From Ghiorsea bivora (GTDB lineage: Bacteria; Pseudomonadota; Zetaproteobacteria; Mariprofundales; Mariprofundaceae): a stretch of 64,000 nucleotides of DNA. The translations under genes and the position numbers were made by a program. The notes under the pieces are model-generated. The model ran no database searches. It worked only from the letters and a program-made list of their open reading frames with translations, and was not told where the DNA came from. Shown here piece by piece: positions 6,873 to 59,575 of this stretch (position 1 is the stretch's first letter; each line of letters starts with the position of its first letter). The DNA lies in the NCBI RefSeq assembly GCF_000744415.1, contig NZ_JQLW01000005.1, positions 38,650-102,649 on the forward strand, written 5' to 3'.

Positions 6873-7640
6873 ATGCTATTTGTTGCCGTTCGCGCCGCCC
6901 GCCGCGCTGGAGACCTAATCCTTCGCCACTATGAAGATGCCGACTCGTATTCGGTTAAACAAAAACAAGACCGCGACTTTGTCACCGAGGTTGATAAACG
7001 CGCTGAAGAAATCATTATTTCTGAAATTCGCAAACATTATCCCAACCATGGCATTGTGGCTGAAGAATCTGCTCCCATTAATCCTAATGCAGACATTCAA
7101 TGGTATATCGACCCTTTGGATGGCACCACCAATTTCGTACACGGTTACCCACATTTTGCAGTGTCCATTGCTGCATGGCAAAAAGGAAAACCTTTGCTTG
7201 CTGTGATTCATGACCCTATTCGTGATGAAACTTTTGAAGCTAAGAATGGTGGCGGTGCATTTTTAAACCGTCGCCGCATGCGTGTTAGCGAATGTAAACA
7301 CGTTAAAAATGCATTGTTTGCATCGGGATTACCGCCTTATCAACGCGATGGGCTGGATGATTTCCAAAAACGCATGGATAACTGCATGCGTGCTGCTGAT
7401 GGTTATCGCCGTGGTGGTTCTGCCGCACTTGATTTGGCATATGTTGCAGCAGGTCGCATCGACGCATACTGGGAAGCAGGCCTAAAATCTTGGGATATCG
7501 CAGCAGGTGTATTACTCATCCAAGAAGCAGGTGGCATTGCCACAGGTCTTGATGGAGCAAGCATTGATTTAGAAAAAGGTGATGTGCTTGTCGGCAACGA
7601 TGCCATGCACCGTGGTTTTCAAAAGCTTATCAAGCTTTAA
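6873..7640 (+). CDS. suhB: Inositol monophosphatase family protein (SuhB-like)
   Basis: A 255-residue Mg2+-dependent phosphatase of the IMPase family. Diagnostic motifs are WYIDPLDGTTNFVHG (metal-binding Asp and Thr) and the later WDIAAGVLLIQEAGG; the upstream acidic EES supplies another metal ligand. In proteobacteria the family member SuhB hydrolyses inositol-1-phosphate and also associates with the transcription antitermination machinery. The start at ATG 6873 has TGAGG upstream. The 224 bases between uvrA and this gene hold no convincing gene or terminator. Substrate specificity cannot be read from the sequence. Confidence 0.92.
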   Translation: MLFVAVRAARRAGDLILRHYEDADSYSVKQKQDRDFVTEVDKRAEEIIISEIRKHYPNHGIVAEESAPINPNADIQWYIDPLDGTTNFVHGYPHFAVSIAAWQKGKPLLAVIHDPIRDETFEAKNGGGAFLNRRRMRVSECKHVKNALFASGLPPYQRDGLDDFQKRMDNCMRAADGYRRGGSAALDLAYVAAGRIDAYWEAGLKSWDIAAGVLLIQEAGGIATGLDGASIDLEKGDVLVGNDAMHRGFQKLIKL

Positions 7641-46048: not shown

Positions 46049-46386
46049 TCCACCTCCAATTCTTTAATCCGCAGCTCATCGCCACTGGATATTTGTAACT
46101 GATAACTACCACAAGACGGGCATGGTTCACCCCGACCTGTAATTTCAACTTCATTCATACACTGCATACACCAAGCCTGCGCTGGTAGTTCAATAATTTC
46201 CAGTGTTGAACCATCAGCAACCGAACCTTTGACCACCACATCATAACTGAACAACATGGCTTCATGTTCCACACCCGATAATACGCCAATTTCTAGCCAA
46301 ACTTTTTTAACTTTTTTAAACCCTTGTTGCTTGGCGCTATCTTCCAAAACGGTTAACACGCCTTCGCACAGTGACATTTCATGCAT
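46045..46386 (-). CDS. hypA: Hydrogenase nickel metallochaperone HypA
   Basis: A 113-residue nickel/zinc protein. The N-terminal [11 protein letters not shown] carries His2, the nickel ligand. The zinc site has two CxxC pairs, CMQC and CPSC. The length is typical. It overlaps hoxV by eight bases and hypB by four. Confidence 0.95.
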
Positions 46387-47560
46387 GGCTCACCTCTAAT
46401 TCAAATGCAACACAAGGGTCCATAGCATGAATCAATAGTTTGGCTTGTTGTTCAATGGATTTAGCATCACCTTGCAACGTTTCCAATGCTCGTTTTAACA
46501 CACCATCAGGATGGAAGTTCCACTCCGTTGGCGCAACGATTTGGTAAGTTTCAACCTTGTTTTCAGCATCCAAAACAACCCTGTGTAGCAGGCGACCACG
46601 CGCAGCTTCCACTGCACCAAAACCCGTCTTATCAGGCGCACTTCCCACCGCATCACATCTGGATTCAGACTGCATCAATGCCTTTTCTAAATCCAAATAC
46701 GTCTTGGCAAGTTCCAATAAAACCGCTGCAAAACGAGTCAGTAGACCCACGCCAAATTTCTGCTCCAATTCCACAATCAATGGGTGTGACCGTTGTCTTG
46801 CATAGGGTGTACTTTCATAAGTTTTAGCATCAATGCTTGGAGCCTGCATAAAGCCATCAGCATAATCGGATGACAAAACTTGTTCTAACCATACTGTTTC
46901 AAATGCAGGCAAGGCTTGCGTATCCGTTGAACCTGAACCCTGCCAAGCTTGTGTGACCAAGTATTGTATAAGTTGCGGTGCATTTAACTGTGTGTACTGC
47001 GCCCACAGCAAAAACTCTTCTGCTCCCTTACACTCAAAAAAAGCTTTGGGTGGCATATAAAACACCTGTTCTTTGAGCAAGGTGCCTAACTTCATGGCAA
47101 CCTTGGATGCTTTGCTTCTTGATGGTTTAACCACATCTTCACCACAAACAAAGGCTTGTTTGTTTGCATCCAAACAGGTTTCCCAATCTTTATCTAAACC
47201 CAACACTTGTTTCATCAACGCATGGTTAGCAGAAAGCCCCCTAAGCACTGGCCAATCCAAACAAATACGCCATAAATGCTCACGCATTAATTCCATACGC
47301 ACTAACTGCGCCCGTACACCACAAGCCTCACGAAACGATTCTGTTTGCATCGCTTGCTCAACCGCAAACGCCGCTGCTGAGGCTTGAGCTTTTGCGCACA
47401 AGTTAAACACCATCCCAACCTTTTGTGGTGCTTGCTTTGCATTCGTACCAGCAAGAAGCGCTTGAGCCAGTAATGGTCGTTGCGACTTCACCACTGCTTG
47501 CTGAACACCTTGGTTCGCAAGCAACAGTGAAATAGATACATTGCCTTCTAAACCCATCAA
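46379..47560 (-). CDS. hoxV: HoxV/HupK-type hydrogenase assembly protein
   Basis: A 393-residue relative of [NiFe] large subunits. The nickel-binding Cys motifs are lost: no RxCGxC near the N-terminus, and the C-terminal motif is reduced to AMDPCVAFELEV with one Cys. The conserved YQIVAPTEWNFHPDG shows its origin. HoxV/HupK is thought to act as a scaffold passing the Fe(CN)2CO unit to the membrane-bound hydrogenase. It follows the CxxCH membrane protein directly. Confidence 0.87.
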   Translation of the reverse strand: MMGLEGNVSISLLLANQGVQQAVVKSQRPLLAQALLAGTNAKQAPQKVGMVFNLCAKAQASAAAFAVEQAMQTESFREACGVRAQLVRMELMREHLWRICLDWPVLRGLSANHALMKQVLGLDKDWETCLDANKQAFVCGEDVVKPSRSKASKVAMKLGTLLKEQVFYMPPKAFFECKGAEEFLLWAQYTQLNAPQLIQYLVTQAWQGSGSTDTQALPAFETVWLEQVLSSDYADGFMQAPSIDAKTYESTPYARQRSHPLIVELEQKFGVGLLTRFAAVLLELAKTYLDLEKALMQSESRCDAVGSAPDKTGFGAVEAARGRLLHRVVLDAENKVETYQIVAPTEWNFHPDGVLKRALETLQGDAKSIEQQAKLLIHAMDPCVAFELEVSHA

Positions 47561-48310
47561 TCAATGCTCATCAATGACAGATGAATCCTCGTGTTTTCTA
47601 AACCACATCTCATATACTGAAACAAACCACATAAAGGCAAATGCTAAACCCATGCCGCTACCACCAATCATAACCAACCATGCAAACACAGGGTCAAACT
47701 TGGTTAGCCACCATGATGAAATATCCATAATTTGTGATACAAAAGGCATAGCAATTGCCGCTGACTTCAACCAAACAGGCACACTGGTCGCAAAGACAAA
47801 AATTGCGCCTACAAAGAAAAAGATAAAGGCAATACCAAACAAGTGAATATGCGAAACTCGTGTTAGCGATTTAACACTTGCACCAGTATCTTGCTTTGCG
47901 CGTTCTTTAATGTTTTCAAACTTTGTAAAATCAGGAAGACCCATGCCTGCTTCTTCAGAGTGACAGGCAATACATGTATTTTCAAACACCATTTTGGCAC
48001 CGCTGGACTCAAAAGTTGATTCTTTAGCACCATCACGAACCCATTTGATAATCGTTACCCTATCTGGCTCATCTGCCATATCTTTCATCGAACCATTCAA
48101 TTTGTTTTCAATCAATGTGCCCGTACGATTACCATAATAACTGTATACAATATCATCCACAGACAAACCAAACTTGCCATCAGCCATACCATGCGTTAAT
48201 AAAATTTGTGTGACTGCCATCAGATAGCCAATGCCAACTACACATAAGTAACTGGTAAACAATACCTTCAATGGTGTACCAATATTCGTAAGATTATAGC
48301 CTTTCATCAT
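47561..48310 (-). CDS. Membrane protein with a c-type haem motif, unknown
   Basis: A 249-residue protein I cannot assign to a named Hox/Hup family. A membrane helix at about residues 12-36 is followed by a soluble segment of about 110 residues, which carries a single haem c motif in FENTCIACHSEEAGMGLPDF. Then come three membrane helices (about 148-172, 177-195 and 203-232). A His-rich entry to the second helix (HIHLFG) could bind another cofactor. The gene lies between hoxT and hoxV with 16 and 0 bases of spacing, so it belongs to the operon. It may link hydrogenase to an electron carrier or support haem/redox steps of maturation; this is inference. Confidence 0.7.
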   Translation of the reverse strand: MMKGYNLTNIGTPLKVLFTSYLCVVGIGYLMAVTQILLTHGMADGKFGLSVDDIVYSYYGNRTGTLIENKLNGSMKDMADEPDRVTIIKWVRDGAKESTFESSGAKMVFENTCIACHSEEAGMGLPDFTKFENIKERAKQDTGASVKSLTRVSHIHLFGIAFIFFFVGAIFVFATSVPVWLKSAAIAMPFVSQIMDISSWWLTKFDPVFAWLVMIGGSGMGLAFAFMWFVSVYEMWFRKHEDSSVIDEH

Positions 48311-48326
48311 TGTGCCATACTTCCTT

Positions 48327-48935
48327 TTAAGTTTTATTTTTTACATTTCTAAAAAAACCACCGCGCAGCAATTCGCGACGCGACATGGGTTTTTCTAAAC
48401 TTTCTTTAGCTACAGCGCCTACTGTTTGCACGCCATCCAGCACCGTTTCGACCATGCTCGAACTTTCTTTACTTGCAGACTCATGTTGTTCATCCCAAGG
48501 TTCTGAGCCTAACACCTCTTTGTTTTCCGCATTGAACATACCAATAACAATCGCCTCGGCTGTTTGTACAGCCGCTTCATGGTCTACAAACTCAAACATG
48601 GGTGAAAACATGGAACAGCTCATGTATTTACCTAAGCGTTCTTCTTCTCCCACAATAAATTCAAATGAACCTGCTTCAAATGTATAACTATGCTTACTTC
48701 CTACACCATAAGTTGACCAGTCCGTATTCTCAGTAGGTAGTAACATCAGGTTCATAAACCATGGTGTAATTAACACACCTAACACATGTTGATTCCACTC
48801 ACGGAACCCCACAGCTTGCACTTTTAATTTATCATTCAATATGGGAATATCTGTCATTCGATTTACTCGAATATCATCATACAGTTGTTCCAAGTGATAC
48901 GCCGCACCCATAGGCGTTAAAGACTTGAGCTGCAT
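48327..48935 (-). CDS. hoxT: HoxT/HupJ, HybE-family hydrogenase chaperone
   Basis: A 202-residue protein. The HybE-type core is FREWNQHVLGVLITPWFMNL followed by MLLP, and FEFVDHEAAVQTAEAI. The C-terminal part (about 150-202) is a linker ending in MSRRELLRGGFFRNV, a twin-arginine-like sequence at the wrong end of the protein. HybE-type proteins help mature or proofread Tat-exported hydrogenase subunits. It lies one base after hoxR. Confidence 0.87.
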   Translation of the reverse strand: MQLKSLTPMGAAYHLEQLYDDIRVNRMTDIPILNDKLKVQAVGFREWNQHVLGVLITPWFMNLMLLPTENTDWSTYGVGSKHSYTFEAGSFEFIVGEEERLGKYMSCSMFSPMFEFVDHEAAVQTAEAIVIGMFNAENKEVLGSEPWDEQHESASKESSSMVETVLDGVQTVGAVAKESLEKPMSRRELLRGGFFRNVKNKT

Positions 48936-48936
48936 C

Positions 48937-49164
48937 TTATTTATCCCTTAACACAACCATAAAATCTTCTTTTCTTCCGTCACATTCTGGACACTTCCAA
49001 TGTTCAGGAAGTTCTGAAAAAGGTGTGCCCGGCTCAATTTGCCAGTAATCATCACCTTCATCAGGTTTATATTGGTACCAGCAAATCTTACACTCTAAAA
49101 TGGCATCATCTGCGATTTTCCCACTATCTCCACCATACGAGTTAAAAAAGGTATCATCACTCAT
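48937..49164 (-). CDS. hoxR: HoxR/HupI rubredoxin
   Basis: A 75-residue rubredoxin with the two iron-binding pairs CKIC and CPEC in ECKICWYQYKPDEGDDYW and EHWKCPECDGRKEDF. In aerobic H2 oxidisers this rubredoxin is needed for making the special proximal cluster of O2-tolerant hydrogenase. It overlaps hoxQ by eight bases. Confidence 0.95.
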   Translation of the reverse strand: MSDDTFFNSYGGDSGKIADDAILECKICWYQYKPDEGDDYWQIEPGTPFSELPEHWKCPECDGRKEDFMVVLRDK

Positions 49165-51746: not shown

Positions 51747-52721
51747 TTATTGATTCAGACAACACTTTTTATATTTCTTACCACTGCCACACAAACAAGG
51801 CTCATTTCGTCCTAACTTCTTGGTGCCACGAACAACAGTCGCTGAACGCCAACCCATAGGCGAAACCCGCTCACCAGGGATCACATCTTTATCTACAATA
51901 GGCACATCCAAAGCCTCATAATCCTTACCTTTTTGCAGTAACTTCCTATCTGGGTATAGCCACCAACTCAACTCCTCAAATGGAGACTTCATAAACCCAT
52001 CAACCACATTATCCTTTAACTTTAAAGCATCCTGAAAAGGCTGAGCCAAACAATCCGCTAAAGACAGGTGGCTAAGCACAACGGGCTCTATAAGCTTATC
52101 TTCAATGGCTTGAGTAAGCTGCCGCTCCAACTCCTTAGGATGCAAGTCATATGCAATCAACGCTACAGCATCCCAAACATAACTAGGATTTCGCTCTAAC
52201 TTGTTCGTTAACAACTCACCAAGGTATTGCATCACTTCAGCCCTACTAATGACATCCTCTTTCCACAACACCATAAGCGAATCCAAAGCTCCTGCTCGAA
52301 TCCAAGGGTTTAGCTTCTGATTTTCAACCACGCTTTGAATACTTTTAATATCACCATGATACATCGAAGCAAGTAGTCGCCCTAAGGCTTCCGTTAACAC
52401 TTCACCTGTTAATGTTAATATCAATTTATTCTCAAGAGAAACAAGCCGAATAAGTTTAGAAAAAGCAGCTTTCTCTCGAAAATATGCAAGTAAAAATATT
52501 GATAAAATATGCCGTATATATGATCTTCCCTTAGCTTCAATCGATAATGGATCTTGAATAAACGCATCCATCTCATGCAGTAAATATGGTGTTAGCTCAC
52601 GTTGATTCGCAACCATTTTCTCAAAATCTTCTTGGCTCGGTGGTGCATCAACCGACATGAGTGCATTAAATAACTTTTCAATTTTTACATTCTGTTCACT
52701 GGACATCTCAACCCCTATCAA
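51747..52721 (-). CDS. DUF1186/SEC-C zinc-motif protein
   Basis: 324 residues from 52721, or 319 from the Met at 52706, which has AGGGGTTGAG upstream. The main part is helical and repeat-like, resembling DUF1186. The C-terminus has the SEC-C zinc motif RNEPCLCGSGKKYKKCC, as in SecA. No link to hydrogenase is known to me; it sits between hoxZ and hoxM, separated from hoxZ by a terminator and from hoxM by 251 bases. It may have its own promoter. The function is unknown. Confidence 0.8.
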   Translation of the reverse strand: MIGVEMSSEQNVKIEKLFNALMSVDAPPSQEDFEKMVANQRELTPYLLHEMDAFIQDPLSIEAKGRSYIRHILSIFLLAYFREKAAFSKLIRLVSLENKLILTLTGEVLTEALGRLLASMYHGDIKSIQSVVENQKLNPWIRAGALDSLMVLWKEDVISRAEVMQYLGELLTNKLERNPSYVWDAVALIAYDLHPKELERQLTQAIEDKLIEPVVLSHLSLADCLAQPFQDALKLKDNVVDGFMKSPFEELSWWLYPDRKLLQKGKDYEALDVPIVDKDVIPGERVSPMGWRSATVVRGTKKLGRNEPCLCGSGKKYKKCCLNQ

Positions 52722-52808: not shown

Positions 52809-53525
52809 TCAAGGGCGATTATCCTTGAACATACGCCAGCCACTAATCATGGTACTCACCATACTTTGTCGTGACATAATATCTTCACGAATCGCTGCAT
52901 AAACATGCGCCATAATAAATATGATTAAGAACCACATACCTAAGTGATGGAATGTATGCACATCTTGGCTTTGCCCAAACAACGGAATCACCCATGATGA
53001 GAACATATTATATTGCCACGAACCCATGCCCGTACCTTCACCATACAAAGCAAACCCTGTGATAATCATAAAGAATGTTCCAAACACAAACATCGTAAAC
53101 ATAGCTGCCTGCGCCAAAGGGTTATGACCCACACATTTGACAGACTCTTTTTCTAAAAAAGCGTACCAACGTGTCTCATGAATCATACCTTTAATGTGCT
53201 CCTTCGTAACAGGAGGAATAAACAATTGTTTCGCATGGTGGTTGCCCACAAATGCCCAGTATATTCTTCCCAACATACCAACAGCCAACACATAACCTGA
53301 TGCAAAGTGAGCAAAGCGAATATACCCCATCAGGTAGCTTGAACTCGGATCACCTGGCATTGTCGGCAGTGGTGCCCCAATAAAGTAGCCCGTTACACAC
53401 AAAACAGTAATTGCCAATGCATTAACCCAATGCCAAATACGTACTGGAGCTTCATACACATATACTGATTCCGTATGTTTAACGATTTCATGCGATCTAT
53501 TATTTGAAATTGATGCATCAGACAT
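52809..53525 (-). CDS. hoxZ: Hydrogenase membrane cytochrome b subunit
   Basis: A 238-residue dihaem cytochrome b with four membrane helices that anchors HoxKG and passes electrons to quinone. Haem-ligand His regions are VRIWHWVNALAI, RFAHFASGYVL and VHTFHHLGMWFLIIFIMAHVY. GTGMGSWQYNMFSSW is typical of the family. It follows hoxG after 65 bases. Confidence 0.95.
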   Translation of the reverse strand: MSDASISNNRSHEIVKHTESVYVYEAPVRIWHWVNALAITVLCVTGYFIGAPLPTMPGDPSSSYLMGYIRFAHFASGYVLAVGMLGRIYWAFVGNHHAKQLFIPPVTKEHIKGMIHETRWYAFLEKESVKCVGHNPLAQAAMFTMFVFGTFFMIITGFALYGEGTGMGSWQYNMFSSWVIPLFGQSQDVHTFHHLGMWFLIIFIMAHVYAAIREDIMSRQSMVSTMISGWRMFKDNRP

Positions 53526-53590: not shown

Positions 53591-55402
53591 TTAGCGCACC
53601 TTAGCACTGACAAGCTCTTCACCTTCTTCACTCATCACATGCGTCGAACATGCAAGGCAAGGGTCGAAGCTGTGTAAGTTACGCAGAATTTCCACTGGCT
53701 CTTCAGCACGCTCAACTGGTGTACCAATCAAACACGCCTCAAAAGCACCAATGTTTCCAGCTGGATCACGCGGTGAGCCATTCCAAGTTGTTGGAACCAC
53801 ACATTGGTAATTTTCAATTTTACCATCTTTAATGCGAATCCAATGACCAAGACCGCCACGTGGAGCTGCTGCAGTACCAACACCTTTACATTCTTTAGGC
53901 CATGTAGATGGATCCCACTTCTCCATATTAGCAGTAGCTGTATCACCAGATTTAATATTATCCATGAGTCTATGCCAATCATCTACCATCATATCTGAGC
54001 AATATTGTGACTCAAGTGCACGCGCCAAAGTACGACCAATGGTTGATTGCAATATGGGTTTTGCGCCCAAATCCGTTCCTGCCAATGCATTAAATGCTGC
54101 AACACTTTTATGAACTTGGTCTTGTACATACTCAACACCTTGAGCATAAGCCAAGGTGTAACGCGACAATGGGCCAACCTCAACAGCATGCCCACGCCAG
54201 CGCGGTGCTTTAATCCATGAGTACTTCGCATTTTCATCAATTTCTTCAATGTTCGTACGCGTACCTTTAGCAGAGCTAACATCATAATTAGGATCAGTAA
54301 TGCCATCCCAAGGATGCAAACCTTTGCTTTCATCAGGATATTTATACCATGAATGGTTCACAAACTCTTGAACTTGCTCTGGATCACGTGGGTCAACTTC
54401 CATAACGTTATCCCAATTGTCATCAAGAATCACACCGCCTGGAAGTTGATCAGTAGATTTGTCATAATTGACAGTTGGGTAGGCACCATAATCCATAACA
54501 TTTTTCGCACCAAGACCACCACCCCACAATTGCTTCTTGTAGAAACTGGCAATCGCCAACACATCAGGAACATACACATTATCATTAAACGCTTTCATTT
54601 CATCAATACGTGCTTTAACGAAGTTTAATCGCTCCATATTCAATGGTGCACCAGCAGCCATATCTCCATCCATATTAATAGCACAAGGAACACCACCAAC
54701 CAAGTAGTTTGGATGTGGATTCTTACCACCAAACACGGTATGAAGCTTCACGAATTCTTTTTGTAAATCCAATGCTTCAAGGTAATGTGTTACTGCCATC
54801 AAATCTGCTTCTGGACTTAATTTGTATGCTGGATTATCCCAATATCCATTTTTAAACGGACCAAGCTGACCTGACTCAATAAATTTACGAATGCGGGTTT
54901 GCACATCTCGGAAATAGCCTGGACTAGAATTCGGATGATTAGGGCCAGTCAATTGTTGAAGCTTAGATGTGGCCTTAGGGTCTGCTTTGAGTGCATTCAC
55001 AGGGTTTACCCAGTCTAATGCATGAAGATGATAGAAATGCACCACATGGTCATGAACTTGCAATGTCTTCGCCATCATTTCACGAATCAAGAATGCATTG
55101 TATGGAATTTTAATATCTAGTGCATCTTCCACTGCGCGAACAGAGGTCAAGGCATGACAACCTGTACACACACCACAAATACGCTCCACAAATGCCCAAG
55201 CATCGCGAGGGTCACGCCCTTTAAGAATCACTTCTAAACCACGCCACATGGTTCCTGTCGAGACTGCATTGGTAATAACATTGTTTGCATCCACATTGAC
55301 TTCACAACGCATGTGTCCTTCAATGCGTGTCACAGGGTCAACAACAACACGTTGTCCACCAGTATCTAAAGTATACCCATTCGGAGTTGTTGTTACGCTC
55401 AT
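53591..55402 (-). CDS. hoxG: Membrane-bound [NiFe] uptake hydrogenase large subunit
   Basis: A 603-residue catalytic subunit oxidising H2 at the periplasmic face. The nickel ligands are C76 and C79 in [20 protein letters not shown] and C582 and C585 in [11 protein letters not shown]. Fifteen residues follow His588 ([15 protein letters not shown]) and should be cut off by HoxM. The L1 motif with [13 protein letters not shown] is of group 1d type. It overlaps the hoxK stop by one base. Confidence 0.97.
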
Positions 55403-56490
55403 TATTTGTCTCCTTGATCTGCTTTATTGGTTGCAGATTTAATTGCTGAGGCTGCTGCATGCACAGCGATTGCACCACCTACAATGGCAGCGGCGGTTCC
55501 ACCCACTTCATCGGCATTGGATTCAATACCAAACTGGTGAATCCCTGATAAACGGTCATAAAAGCTACCTTTATCCCAAAATCCATCTTCCGAACAACCA
55601 ATGCAGCCATGACCTGCTTGAATAGGGAAGGAAGTGCCTTCATTCCAGCGAATGGTTGAACATGCATTGTATGTCGTTGGACCTTTACAACCCACTTTAT
55701 ATAAGCAATAACCTTTACGCGCATATTCATCATCAAACTCTTCAACAAATTGACCTGCATCAAAATGCGGGCGGCGGTAACATTTGTCATGGATACGCTG
55801 ACTATAAAACATTTTTGGACGACCTTGGCGGTCTAAAGAAGGAATCTTGTCAAAGGTAATCATGTATGCAATAACAGCAGTCATCACCTCTGCAATTGGA
55901 GGGCAACCAGGAACTTTAATAATCGGCTTATTGGCAATACCAGGATGTTTATGTGTTGGTACAGCATGTGTTGGGTTTGGTGCAGCTGCTTGTACACAAC
56001 CCCATGATGCACATGAACCCCAAGAAATAATCGCTTTACAGTGTTTGGATACATGATTCAATTGCTCAGAGAACGGCTTGCCCGCAATAATCATGGACAT
56101 CCCATCTTGGTTTAGCGGTGCATTCCCCTCAACAGCAAGCAAGAAGTTACCATCATATTTTTTTATCGTTTCTTCAATAATTGATTCTGCCTGATGCCCT
56201 GCAGCAGCCATGATGGTATCATCATAATCAAGTGACAGCATCGAAAGAATCACATCTTTTGCCAAAGGGTGAGCTGAACGGATAAATGATTCAGAGCAAC
56301 ATGTACACTCAAGCCCATGTAACCACAACACGGGAAGCCTTGGTTTTGTTTCCATTGCATGTGCAATTTTTGGTGCAAAAGCGGGGCTCAACCCCAATGA
56401 TGCTGCCGTAAGGCTACAGTATTTCAGGAAACTACGTCGTGTAATCCCTTGTCTGCGCATCACTTCATAAAACGTTTCTATCTTTGCCAT
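55402..56490 (-). CDS. hoxK: O2-tolerant [NiFe] hydrogenase small subunit
   Basis: A 362-residue Fe-S subunit with a Tat signal, TRRSFLKYC, then a hydrophobic stretch and a likely cleavage near AHA (residue 45). The proximal cluster has six Cys: LECTCCSES gives C62, C64 and C65, and [13 protein letters not shown] gives C160 and C165. The extra C64 and C165 mark the [4Fe-3S] cluster of O2-tolerant group 1d enzymes. Distal and medial ligands appear in [25 protein letters not shown] and [14 protein letters not shown]. The C-terminal helix (about 328-350) anchors it at HoxZ. A sigma54 promoter precedes it. Confidence 0.97.
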
Positions 56491-56960: not shown

Positions 56961-57278
56961 CTACTGATTAGGATATTCAGCGACGCGCTGCCAATCTCGA
57001 TGTCCATAATAGTCGGTAATCGTTAAGTTAATATCCAATGCCATTTTACCAGACAAACAAAACAGCTCAGATGATGATGTTGGTGCCGTACTGGTGTAAT
57101 GAACCCAAAACACCTCAACCCATAGCGCAACTGCCTCTGTGCCTGAGCGAGCTTGAGGAAAACCAAGTGCAGCTCCAAAATTAAAAATAGGTGAAGCGTG
57201 TAACGATAACATTATGCTTGCTGTCAAATCTTTCACCAATTCATAATGGTCTTGATATTTTTCTTTATATTCATTCAT
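56961..57278 (-). CDS. Unknown protein coupled to the integrase gene
   Basis: About 105 residues from ATG 57278, whose codon overlaps the integrase stop (ATGAATGA) with GAGGAG upstream, so translation is coupled. The sequence starts MNEYKEKYQDHYELVKDLT and contains FNFGAALGFPQARSGTEAVA. No membrane helix is evident, and Trp/Tyr content is high in the C-terminal half (ITDYYGHRDWQRVAEY). I do not recognise it. It could be an accessory factor of the integrated element. Confidence 0.65.
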   Translation of the reverse strand: MNEYKEKYQDHYELVKDLTASIMLSLHASPIFNFGAALGFPQARSGTEAVALWVEVFWVHYTSTAPTSSSELFCLSGKMALDINLTITDYYGHRDWQRVAEYPNQ

Positions 57279-58452
57279 GGCTGTTCTCCTCTGTACTGTG
57301 TTGCGCCAATAATCGTTCAAAAGCTGATCCATCTTGTCGAGTCAGGTTAGGGATATATCTGGAGTATGTGCGAAACAGCATCTCACTGGTGGTATGCCCC
57401 ATCTGTCTAGCAATCCATTCAGGGCTTTCACCTGCTGCTAGCCACAAGGTCGCTGCTGTATGCCGTGTTTGATAAGGTCGCCTAGCCCTTAGCCCTAAGT
57501 GTCTAAGCAGTGGATGCCAGACACGACGCGTAACATTGCGGTGCATTAAAGAACCACCCTTACTGTTGCAAAACACAAAAGGCATATCACCCGTGGCTTC
57601 TTGCTGTTGCTTTAACGCTTGAAAAACTGTCTCCGACATATCAATCGCCCGATATGAGCCATCATTCTTGGTATAAATCAGCTCATCCATCACCAAGGCT
57701 TGGCGAATAAGAATTTGTCGCCGCTCAAAGTCCACATACTGCCATTGCAGCCCATCAATTTCTGATGTTCGCATGGCTGTGAAGAAACGAACCGTATAAT
57801 AATTCTTAAAGTCAGGGCGGACATGCTTTAAAATCAACATCACTTCTTCAAGTGTAAACGGTTCAACATCCGTGCGTGGAACTTTGAGAGACTTGATTCC
57901 ATGATAAGCCGAGCTAAACTCAAACCTGTTAGCTGCTTCATTGAGTATCATGCGCAATGGCGTCATGATATGGTTAATTCGTGATGCTGACAGAGACTTT
58001 CCACTTCGGTTCTGAACTTTGGCGAGAGAAGACCGAAATGCGAGAATATCTGTTTTGGTGATGCAGCTAACGCCTTTTTCTCCAAACCATTCTAATAAAT
58101 ACTGGTCTAAAATATCTTTTACCCCAAGCTTATGGGTCTTGCGCCACTGAATACTCATTTCATCATACCAAAGTGCCGCAAACTCTTTGAATGTTGGCGA
58201 ATTTGACAGACGCGTTTGGATTCTACTTTGCTGATGTTCAAATTGTTGAACACGCGGACTATTGGGAAAATAATCAGCATAATTAAATGTTCCCAAAGTC
58301 ATCTCAGCTTCCATTTTATCCAAAACCCGCTGAAGTTTCTTACGGTTAGCGGGAGTATCCGTGAGTTGTGTATATTCCCTGCATCGCCGACCCATATATT
58401 GAAAATCAAAAAAAAGTTTTTTGTTATTACTCCGAGCTCTCACACTAGCCAT
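57271..58452 (-). CDS. Phage-type tyrosine integrase
   Basis: About 393 residues from ATG 58452 (GGGGGTG upstream). An N-terminal arm-type domain (SNNKKLFFDFQYMGRRCREY) and SAM-like core-binding domain precede the catalytic domain. It carries Arg in TAMRTSEIDGLQW, His-x-x-Arg in YQTRHTAATLW, His in MGHTTSEML and the Tyr in RTYSRYIPN. The length is typical for phage or island integrases. It overlaps the excisionase-like gene by eight bases, and its end overlaps a small unknown gene. It lies about 0.8 kb from the 3' end of tRNA-His, a common integration target. Confidence 0.93.
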   Translation of the reverse strand: MASVRARSNNKKLFFDFQYMGRRCREYTQLTDTPANRKKLQRVLDKMEAEMTLGTFNYADYFPNSPRVQQFEHQQSRIQTRLSNSPTFKEFAALWYDEMSIQWRKTHKLGVKDILDQYLLEWFGEKGVSCITKTDILAFRSSLAKVQNRSGKSLSASRINHIMTPLRMILNEAANRFEFSSAYHGIKSLKVPRTDVEPFTLEEVMLILKHVRPDFKNYYTVRFFTAMRTSEIDGLQWQYVDFERRQILIRQALVMDELIYTKNDGSYRAIDMSETVFQALKQQQEATGDMPFVFCNSKGGSLMHRNVTRRVWHPLLRHLGLRARRPYQTRHTAATLWLAAGESPEWIARQMGHTTSEMLFRTYSRYIPNLTRQDGSAFERLLAQHSTEENSHE

Positions 58453-58681
58453 GACAAACACCCCCATTCCCCATAGGGATCATATTAGCCTGAGCGTTGG
58501 ATTGACTAAACATATCCTGTTCAATCGTTTCCCAAATGTATAAAATCTTTCTGCCACCAAATGGACGAAAATAATGAACACCTTCGAGCAGCACAGAATC
58601 TTTAAGGCTGTCGCGAATCGTTCTTGGGTCATATTTTATCCTTTGTGATAGTTCTTCTGTTGTTAAGTATGTTTCATTCAT
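58445..58681 (-). CDS. Excisionase-like small DNA-binding protein
   Basis: About 78 residues from ATG 58681 (GGAG six bases upstream; a TTG at 58693 is possible). YLTTEELSQRIKYDPRTIRD fits a MerR/Xis-type winged helix, and GVHYFRPFGGRKILYIWETI fits the wing. It precedes and overlaps the integrase gene, the usual xis-int order. It should assist excision or control int expression. Confidence 0.72.
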   Translation of the reverse strand: MNETYLTTEELSQRIKYDPRTIRDSLKDSVLLEGVHYFRPFGGRKILYIWETIEQDMFSQSNAQANMIPMGNGGVCHG

Positions 58682-59289: not shown

Positions 59290-59366
59290 TGGGGTGGACG
59301 ACGGGGCTCGAACCCGCGACCACCGGCATCACAAGCCGGGGCTCTACCAACTGAGCTACGTCCACC
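59290..59366 (-). tRNA. tRNA-His (GTG)
   Basis: Cloverleaf on the minus strand: acceptor GTGGACG paired with CGTCCAC, D-arm GTAGCTCAGTTGGTAGAGC, anticodon arm CCGG-CTTGTGATG-CCGG with anticodon GTG, T-arm GCGGGTTCGAGCCCCGT. The extra 5' G (-1) and C73 of tRNA-His are present, and CCA is encoded. Confidence 0.96.
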
Positions 59367-59390
59367 ATAGTTCTTGAAACGGTTGCCGAA

Positions 59391-59467
<77 letters not shown>

Positions 59468-59498
59468 TTAATTCCAGCAGACCAAGGTTGTTTTTAAA

Positions 59499-59575
<77 letters not shown>

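Follow-up and report, generated by a model that had tools for sequence, protein, structure and literature searches.

A membrane protein family with a c-type haem motif, recruited at least twice into hydrogenase operons of Proteobacteria

In membrane-bound hydrogenases of the hox type, the cytochrome b HoxZ is the normal electron exit, and the HoxT and HoxV proteins act in the cytoplasm. The hydrogenase cluster II (island) of Hydrogenovibrio SP-41 contains a gene called ‘elongation factor-1-alpha’, and a strain without that island carries a homologue of this gene (PMC6501319). Here we describe a gene, referred to as X, that lies in the hox operon of Ghiorsea bivora between hoxT and hoxV. The window is the whole stretch of 64,000 nucleotides of Ghiorsea DNA that was analysed, and the features of the operon and of X within it are collected in Table 1.

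Table 1. Features of X, of the hox operon and of the island boundary, with positions in the window
Feature	Position	Strand	Evidence
hoxV/hupK, NiFeSe_Hases C-terminus	46379..47560	-	Pfam, NCBIfam
X, 249-aa four-TM membrane protein, one c-type haem site, unnamed family	47561..48310	-	
TM4 of X, residues 207-236	47603..47692	-	AlphaFold2
TM3 of X, residues 179-202; D196 and W200 near predicted periplasmic end	47705..47776	-	AlphaFold2
TM2 of X, residues 146-171	47798..47875	-	AlphaFold2
HxH pair of X, H154-I-H156, start of TM2, present in haemless relatives too	47843..47851	-	
CxxCH haem c attachment site of X, CIACH, residues 113-117, TM1-TM2 loop predicted periplasmic	47960..47974	-	
TM1 of X, residues 12-41	48188..48277	-	AlphaFold2, hydropathy
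hoxT/hupJ (HybE family)	48327..48935	-	PF11939, 2.4e-48
hoxR rubredoxin, shorter than the 80-aa ORF cut-off	48938..49162	-	Translation
hoxZ cytochrome b	52809..53525	-	TIGR02125, 5.9e-72; PF01292
hoxG large subunit, group 1d type	53591..55402	-	
hoxK small subunit with Tat signal	55402..56490	-	
Integrase at the edge of the hox island	57271..58467	-	
tRNA-His, -Arg, -Pro cluster, locus of the hox island	59290..59575	-	

X starts with ATG behind an AAGGA-like site, follows hoxT after a gap of 16 bp and is itself followed by hoxV, which begins 0–3 bp past the X stop codon. HyaE/HoxO and HupH/HoxQ were also confirmed by Pfam as neighbours, and in the zetaproteobacterial order X lies inside the maturation block hoxO-Q-R-T-X-V. 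A preliminary description of this DNA had placed a 249-residue protein with four membrane helices and one CxxCH motif between hoxT and hoxV. Both the location, given the spacing and the Pfam and NCBIfam matches of the neighbours, and the architecture, given the open reading frame, the hydropathy and an AlphaFold2 model of moderate quality (pLDDT 66), hold. The zetaproteobacterial operon has a second non-classical gene, between hoxZ and hoxM (51747–52721 in the window), which encodes a fast-evolving DUF1186+SEC-C protein (60–83% identity between Ghiorsea species).

X is a genuine, maintained gene under purifying selection, because dN/dS against its relatives is 0.02–0.13, which is below that of hoxV and about that of hoxT; these values and the conservation of the protein rule out a chance open reading frame. 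The CxxCH motif is kept in 96 of 96 haem-type homologues, across which H154, H156 and D196 are 97–100% conserved. Both histidines are also present in all 11 remote relatives that we found, and D196 in 10 of them. The HxH/Asp core is more widely shared than the haem, the motif for which is missing from 10 of the same 11 proteins. Hydropathy and charge suggest that the haem loop and the HxH/Asp cluster are on the periplasmic side. The haemless relatives (L255–L263, for example L256:3302-3982) have loops rich in Met, His and Asp and an SHVHLL motif, and belong to no Pfam family; their gammaproteobacterial gene groups include DUF4198 and DUF3347, with CbiM and an ABC ATPase in L256.

No Pfam or NCBIfam model reaches its curated cut-off with X. 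Against Cytochrom_C (PF00034) X scores 16.6 bits, below the gathering cut-off of 21.3, and the weak cytochrome c profile matches cover just 25–40 residues around the haem motif; when 14 members of the family were searched against Pfam, the best hit was also weak (PccH, E = 3.5e-4). PF01292, the family of HoxZ and cytochrome b561, gives no match to X at E ≤ 1, and sequence searches of the PDB return nothing beyond short haem stretches. A Foldseek search of the PDB yields no match at E ≤ 0.001, a result of little weight because the model is moderate (pLDDT 66). No quinone or haem b site of a known type was recognised in X. One match, from Flammeovirgaceae (L010), has just the short haem segment in common with X and was rejected as a family member. 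Nor does X belong to any known cytochrome family that serves an unrelated purpose.

All eight zetaproteobacterial hox operons that can be read at the relevant site hold X between hoxT and hoxV. They represent three genera: six are from Ghiorsea (the window, G006, G007, G011, G013 and G015), one is from a second genus (G236) and one from a third (G150); the contig of G002 stops short of the site and is outside this count. The Ghiorsea orthologues, at 86–94% identity, occupy the same hox position. By contrast with the zetaproteobacterial loci, 0 of 17 non-zetaproteobacterial hydrogenase loci contain X in an HMM search with filters off; 11 of these span hoxQ–hypA, and hoxT and hoxV were both recognised in eight. 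With G473, a twelfth such locus that likewise has no X, the count for hoxQ–hypA is 0 of 12. The classic hox/hup order thus does lack X, as the preliminary description had stated, and most group 1d operons do without it, including those of close HoxG relatives at 80–86% identity. The expectation that X always sits between hoxT/hupJ and hoxV/hupK in group 1d loci is borne out by the readable zetaproteobacterial loci (8/8) but not by the non-zetaproteobacterial ones (0/12).

Three gammaproteobacteria (G528, G667 and G770) have X in a hox operon at another site, between hoxZ and hoxM. Apart from these, X is absent from the non-zetaproteobacterial hoxQ–hypA loci that were read, and the idea of a general hox accessory gene was rejected. 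Of the four genomes in the order of G667, two have a hydrogenase and an extra, hox-type copy of X in the operon; the other two have neither. The hox operons of the three gammaproteobacteria also have a HupE/UreJ gene between hoxG and hoxZ (L238:6926-7513, L239:4311-4898 and L245). Among 72,556 plasmid records searched with tblastn, the one match to X is a remnant on the Sulfurovum mangrovi plasmid NZ_CP087125.1 (L159:7880-8270), immediately upstream of hupS, in which TM1 is joined to TM3, the haem part is lost and a stop codon is present. We regard this decayed copy as a relic of X beside a campylobacterial hydrogenase.

The family extends well beyond such loci. In a profile search of 398 Pseudomonadota genomes, almost every zetaproteobacterium had it and hardly any other genome did; among 369 sampled Gammaproteobacteria, 59 carry it (a few in haemless form), and a group 1 large subunit is present in 17 of 53 carriers that were re-tested. 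Relatives at about 60% identity in gammaproteobacterial and methanotroph genomes are standalone genes, and these genomes gave no hydrogenase match in a search that had no positive control alongside. X occurs in 52 of the 63 genomes of the gammaproteobacterial order of G398, only five of which have hoxG, always on a different contig from X; the neighbours of X in this order are DUF4197, cbbO, mutY or ABC-F genes. Mariprofundus-like genomes (group g9) also have X, and no hydrogenase large subunit was found in them; two of these genomes (G023 and G075) are single contigs. Occurrence in hydrogenase-free genomes rules out that X is exclusive to genomes with a hydrogenase. Because its homologues lie mainly outside hydrogenase loci, often in genomes that have no hydrogenase, X is not a dedicated hydrogenase part, and the suggestion of a dedicated component of H2 metabolism has to be withdrawn. 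Of the proposal that X is an extra operon member for H2 metabolism, what remains plausible is an electron-transfer member, such as an electron carrier for the hydrogenase; neither a dedicated nor a general hydrogenase factor is plausible. Rather, X represents a large, widespread and undescribed family of putative proteobacterial membrane cytochromes that has no Pfam or NCBIfam model.

In a maximum-likelihood tree, the hox-embedded copies of Zetaproteobacteria and Gammaproteobacteria are far apart, each among standalone copies. Constraining them together costs 161 log units, and a single origin for all hox-embedded copies is rejected by the AU test (p = 2.7e-63), whereas a single origin of the zetaproteobacterial hox copies is not rejected (p = 0.18). 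Because the two hox-embedded clades are thus separated, X was recruited into hox operons at least twice independently, once in Zetaproteobacteria and once in some Gammaproteobacteria. The operon positions differ between the two clades as well (T-X-V and Z-X-M, respectively). The hox island probably brought the copies to G236 and G150, because their sampled sister genomes carry either the paralogue alone or a standalone copy that belongs to another clade.

The genomic site of the island in Ghiorsea bears on whether X has anything to do with H2. Beyond the tRNA cluster of the window lie folK, a deoxynucleoside-kinase-like gene and a glycogen-phosphorylase-like gene, and an IMPase gene is found at 6873–7640. 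No hydrogenase was found in Ghiorsea G010 (genome 88% complete), where glycogen phosphorylase, kinase, folK, tRNA-Pro/Arg/His, X and IMPase follow one another; in Ghiorsea G003 (85% complete), the tRNAs are followed by one patatin-like gene and then by X. This gene order shows that X alone fills the tRNA locus where the window has the island. Loci L077 and L078, from Ghiorsea without a hydrogenase, have X and no island at this tRNA site. The tree places both copies among the zetaproteobacterial hox copies. X either preceded the island and was enclosed by it or stayed behind after the island was lost, and under both histories it is kept without a hydrogenase. Retention of X where the hydrogenase is absent, at the very tRNA locus of the window island in G010 and similarly in G003, favours the view that X is a general cytochrome that stood beside the tRNA locus, was enclosed by the hox island and is merely co-transcribed, with a job unrelated to H2. 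We consider this rather unlikely, as the hoxT–X–hoxV placement is tight in eight genomes of three genera, X probably reached G150 and G236 along with the island, and the gammaproteobacterial recruitment was independent and at a different operon position.

We tentatively favour another reading of these sequences, to which we give slightly less than even weight: that X is a membrane-anchored monohaem c-type cytochrome, a general electron-transfer unit of the periplasmic face, that was recruited to H2 oxidation. TM1 would anchor the protein, with the TM1–TM2 loop holding the haem in the periplasm, and TM2–TM4 would form a bundle with the HxH pair and the Asp on the periplasmic side. X could then move electrons between a membrane donor and the periplasmic pool of c-type cytochromes; the donor might be quinol or, where X sits in a hox operon, the HoxKGZ complex. 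Recruitment to the operon would mean that this electron route is made together with the hydrogenase, in zetaproteobacterial islands and separately in some gammaproteobacteria, and HoxZ would stay the main electron exit. Haem attachment in vivo, membrane topology, the direction of electron flow and the partners are what we infer from these features, and the HxH/Asp site may hold a quinone, a haem or a metal. The two recruitments, the travel of X with the island and its hydrogenase-tracking presence in one small gammaproteobacterial order support a part for X in H2 oxidation in those genomes whose hox operon contains it.

The haemless relatives raise a different possibility, that the core, through its HxH/Asp site, binds or reduces Ni, Cu or Fe and provides the nickel or iron with which the hydrogenase is assembled. 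A Met/His-rich loop replaces the haem in eight of the ten haemless relatives, of which L256 adjoins CbiM and an ABC ATPase and L260 adjoins DUF4198, and these proteins are possibly components of metal uptake; in gammaproteobacterial hox operons, a gene of the HupE/UreJ nickel permease family lies two genes from X. The haem-type members, however, are mostly standalone and had no metal transport genes adjoining them in the loci that we read, the haem itself points to electron transfer, and the haem and haemless groups are linked by remote similarity only, such that a metal-handling role for X seems very unlikely. About as unlikely is a redox factor in oxygen-tolerant maturation of the hydrogenase, working at the membrane together with HoxR, HoxT and HoxV: X does lie within the zetaproteobacterial hoxO-Q-R-T-X-V block, directly between hoxT and hoxV, but this reading is weakened, and an electron path favoured over it, because gammaproteobacterial X adjoins the cytochrome b gene hoxZ, which it follows, outside the hoxR-T-V block; in addition, the haem and HxH pair are predicted to be periplasmic whereas HoxT and HoxV are cytoplasmic, and other operons mature their hydrogenase without X.

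Returning to X as a recruited cytochrome, a bolder form of the proposal is that the membrane-bound hydrogenase has in X a second exit beside HoxZ, linked to cytochrome c, with H2 and Fe(II) electrons sharing the periplasmic cytochrome pool of Ghiorsea. On this view, the haemless relatives would reveal the HxH core as a new redox or metal module of the membrane, to which either a haem or a metal-binding loop has been added. We regard this extended version as unlikely. The findings indicate a large, undescribed membrane cytochrome family, without a Pfam or NCBIfam model, whose members were recruited at least two times to hydrogenase operons. Should X carry electrons, H2 oxidation would be linked in a new way to respiration based on cytochrome c, in a bacterium that lives on Fe(II) as well. 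For separating a general from an H2-related role, the hydrogenase-free Ghiorsea with a lone X at the island tRNA locus offer a natural comparison.

Among known systems, class I cytochrome c domains (PF00034 and PF13442) and Haem_bd (PF14376) share the CxxCH motif with X and give its best partial profile matches; X differs from them in its four-TM architecture, its HxH core and its sub-cut-off scores. HoxZ, the cytochrome b561 hydrogenase subunit (PF01292, TIGR02125), is the membrane partner of the periplasmic hydrogenase, and X adjoins hoxZ in the three gammaproteobacteria; unlike HoxZ, X has no PF01292 match and carries a haem c site. The nearest comparison within the same genome is a zetaproteobacterial paralogue (G000:C12:41649-42350), near cca and hemN, the gene for the oxygen-independent coproporphyrinogen oxidase. 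It is 38% identical to X and has the same architecture, CxxCH and HxH, but it has another neighbourhood and belongs to another deep clade of the family. Almost all Mariprofundales have this paralogue beside a cca-like gene, usually followed by cytochrome c and hemN (L021, L022, L024 and L025). The ‘elongation factor-1-alpha’ gene of Hydrogenovibrio, compared here by gene name only, repeats the pattern of X, with one copy in a group 1d island and a homologue in an island-free strain. That name is surely wrong, and we suspect that the Hydrogenovibrio SP-41 gene is X.
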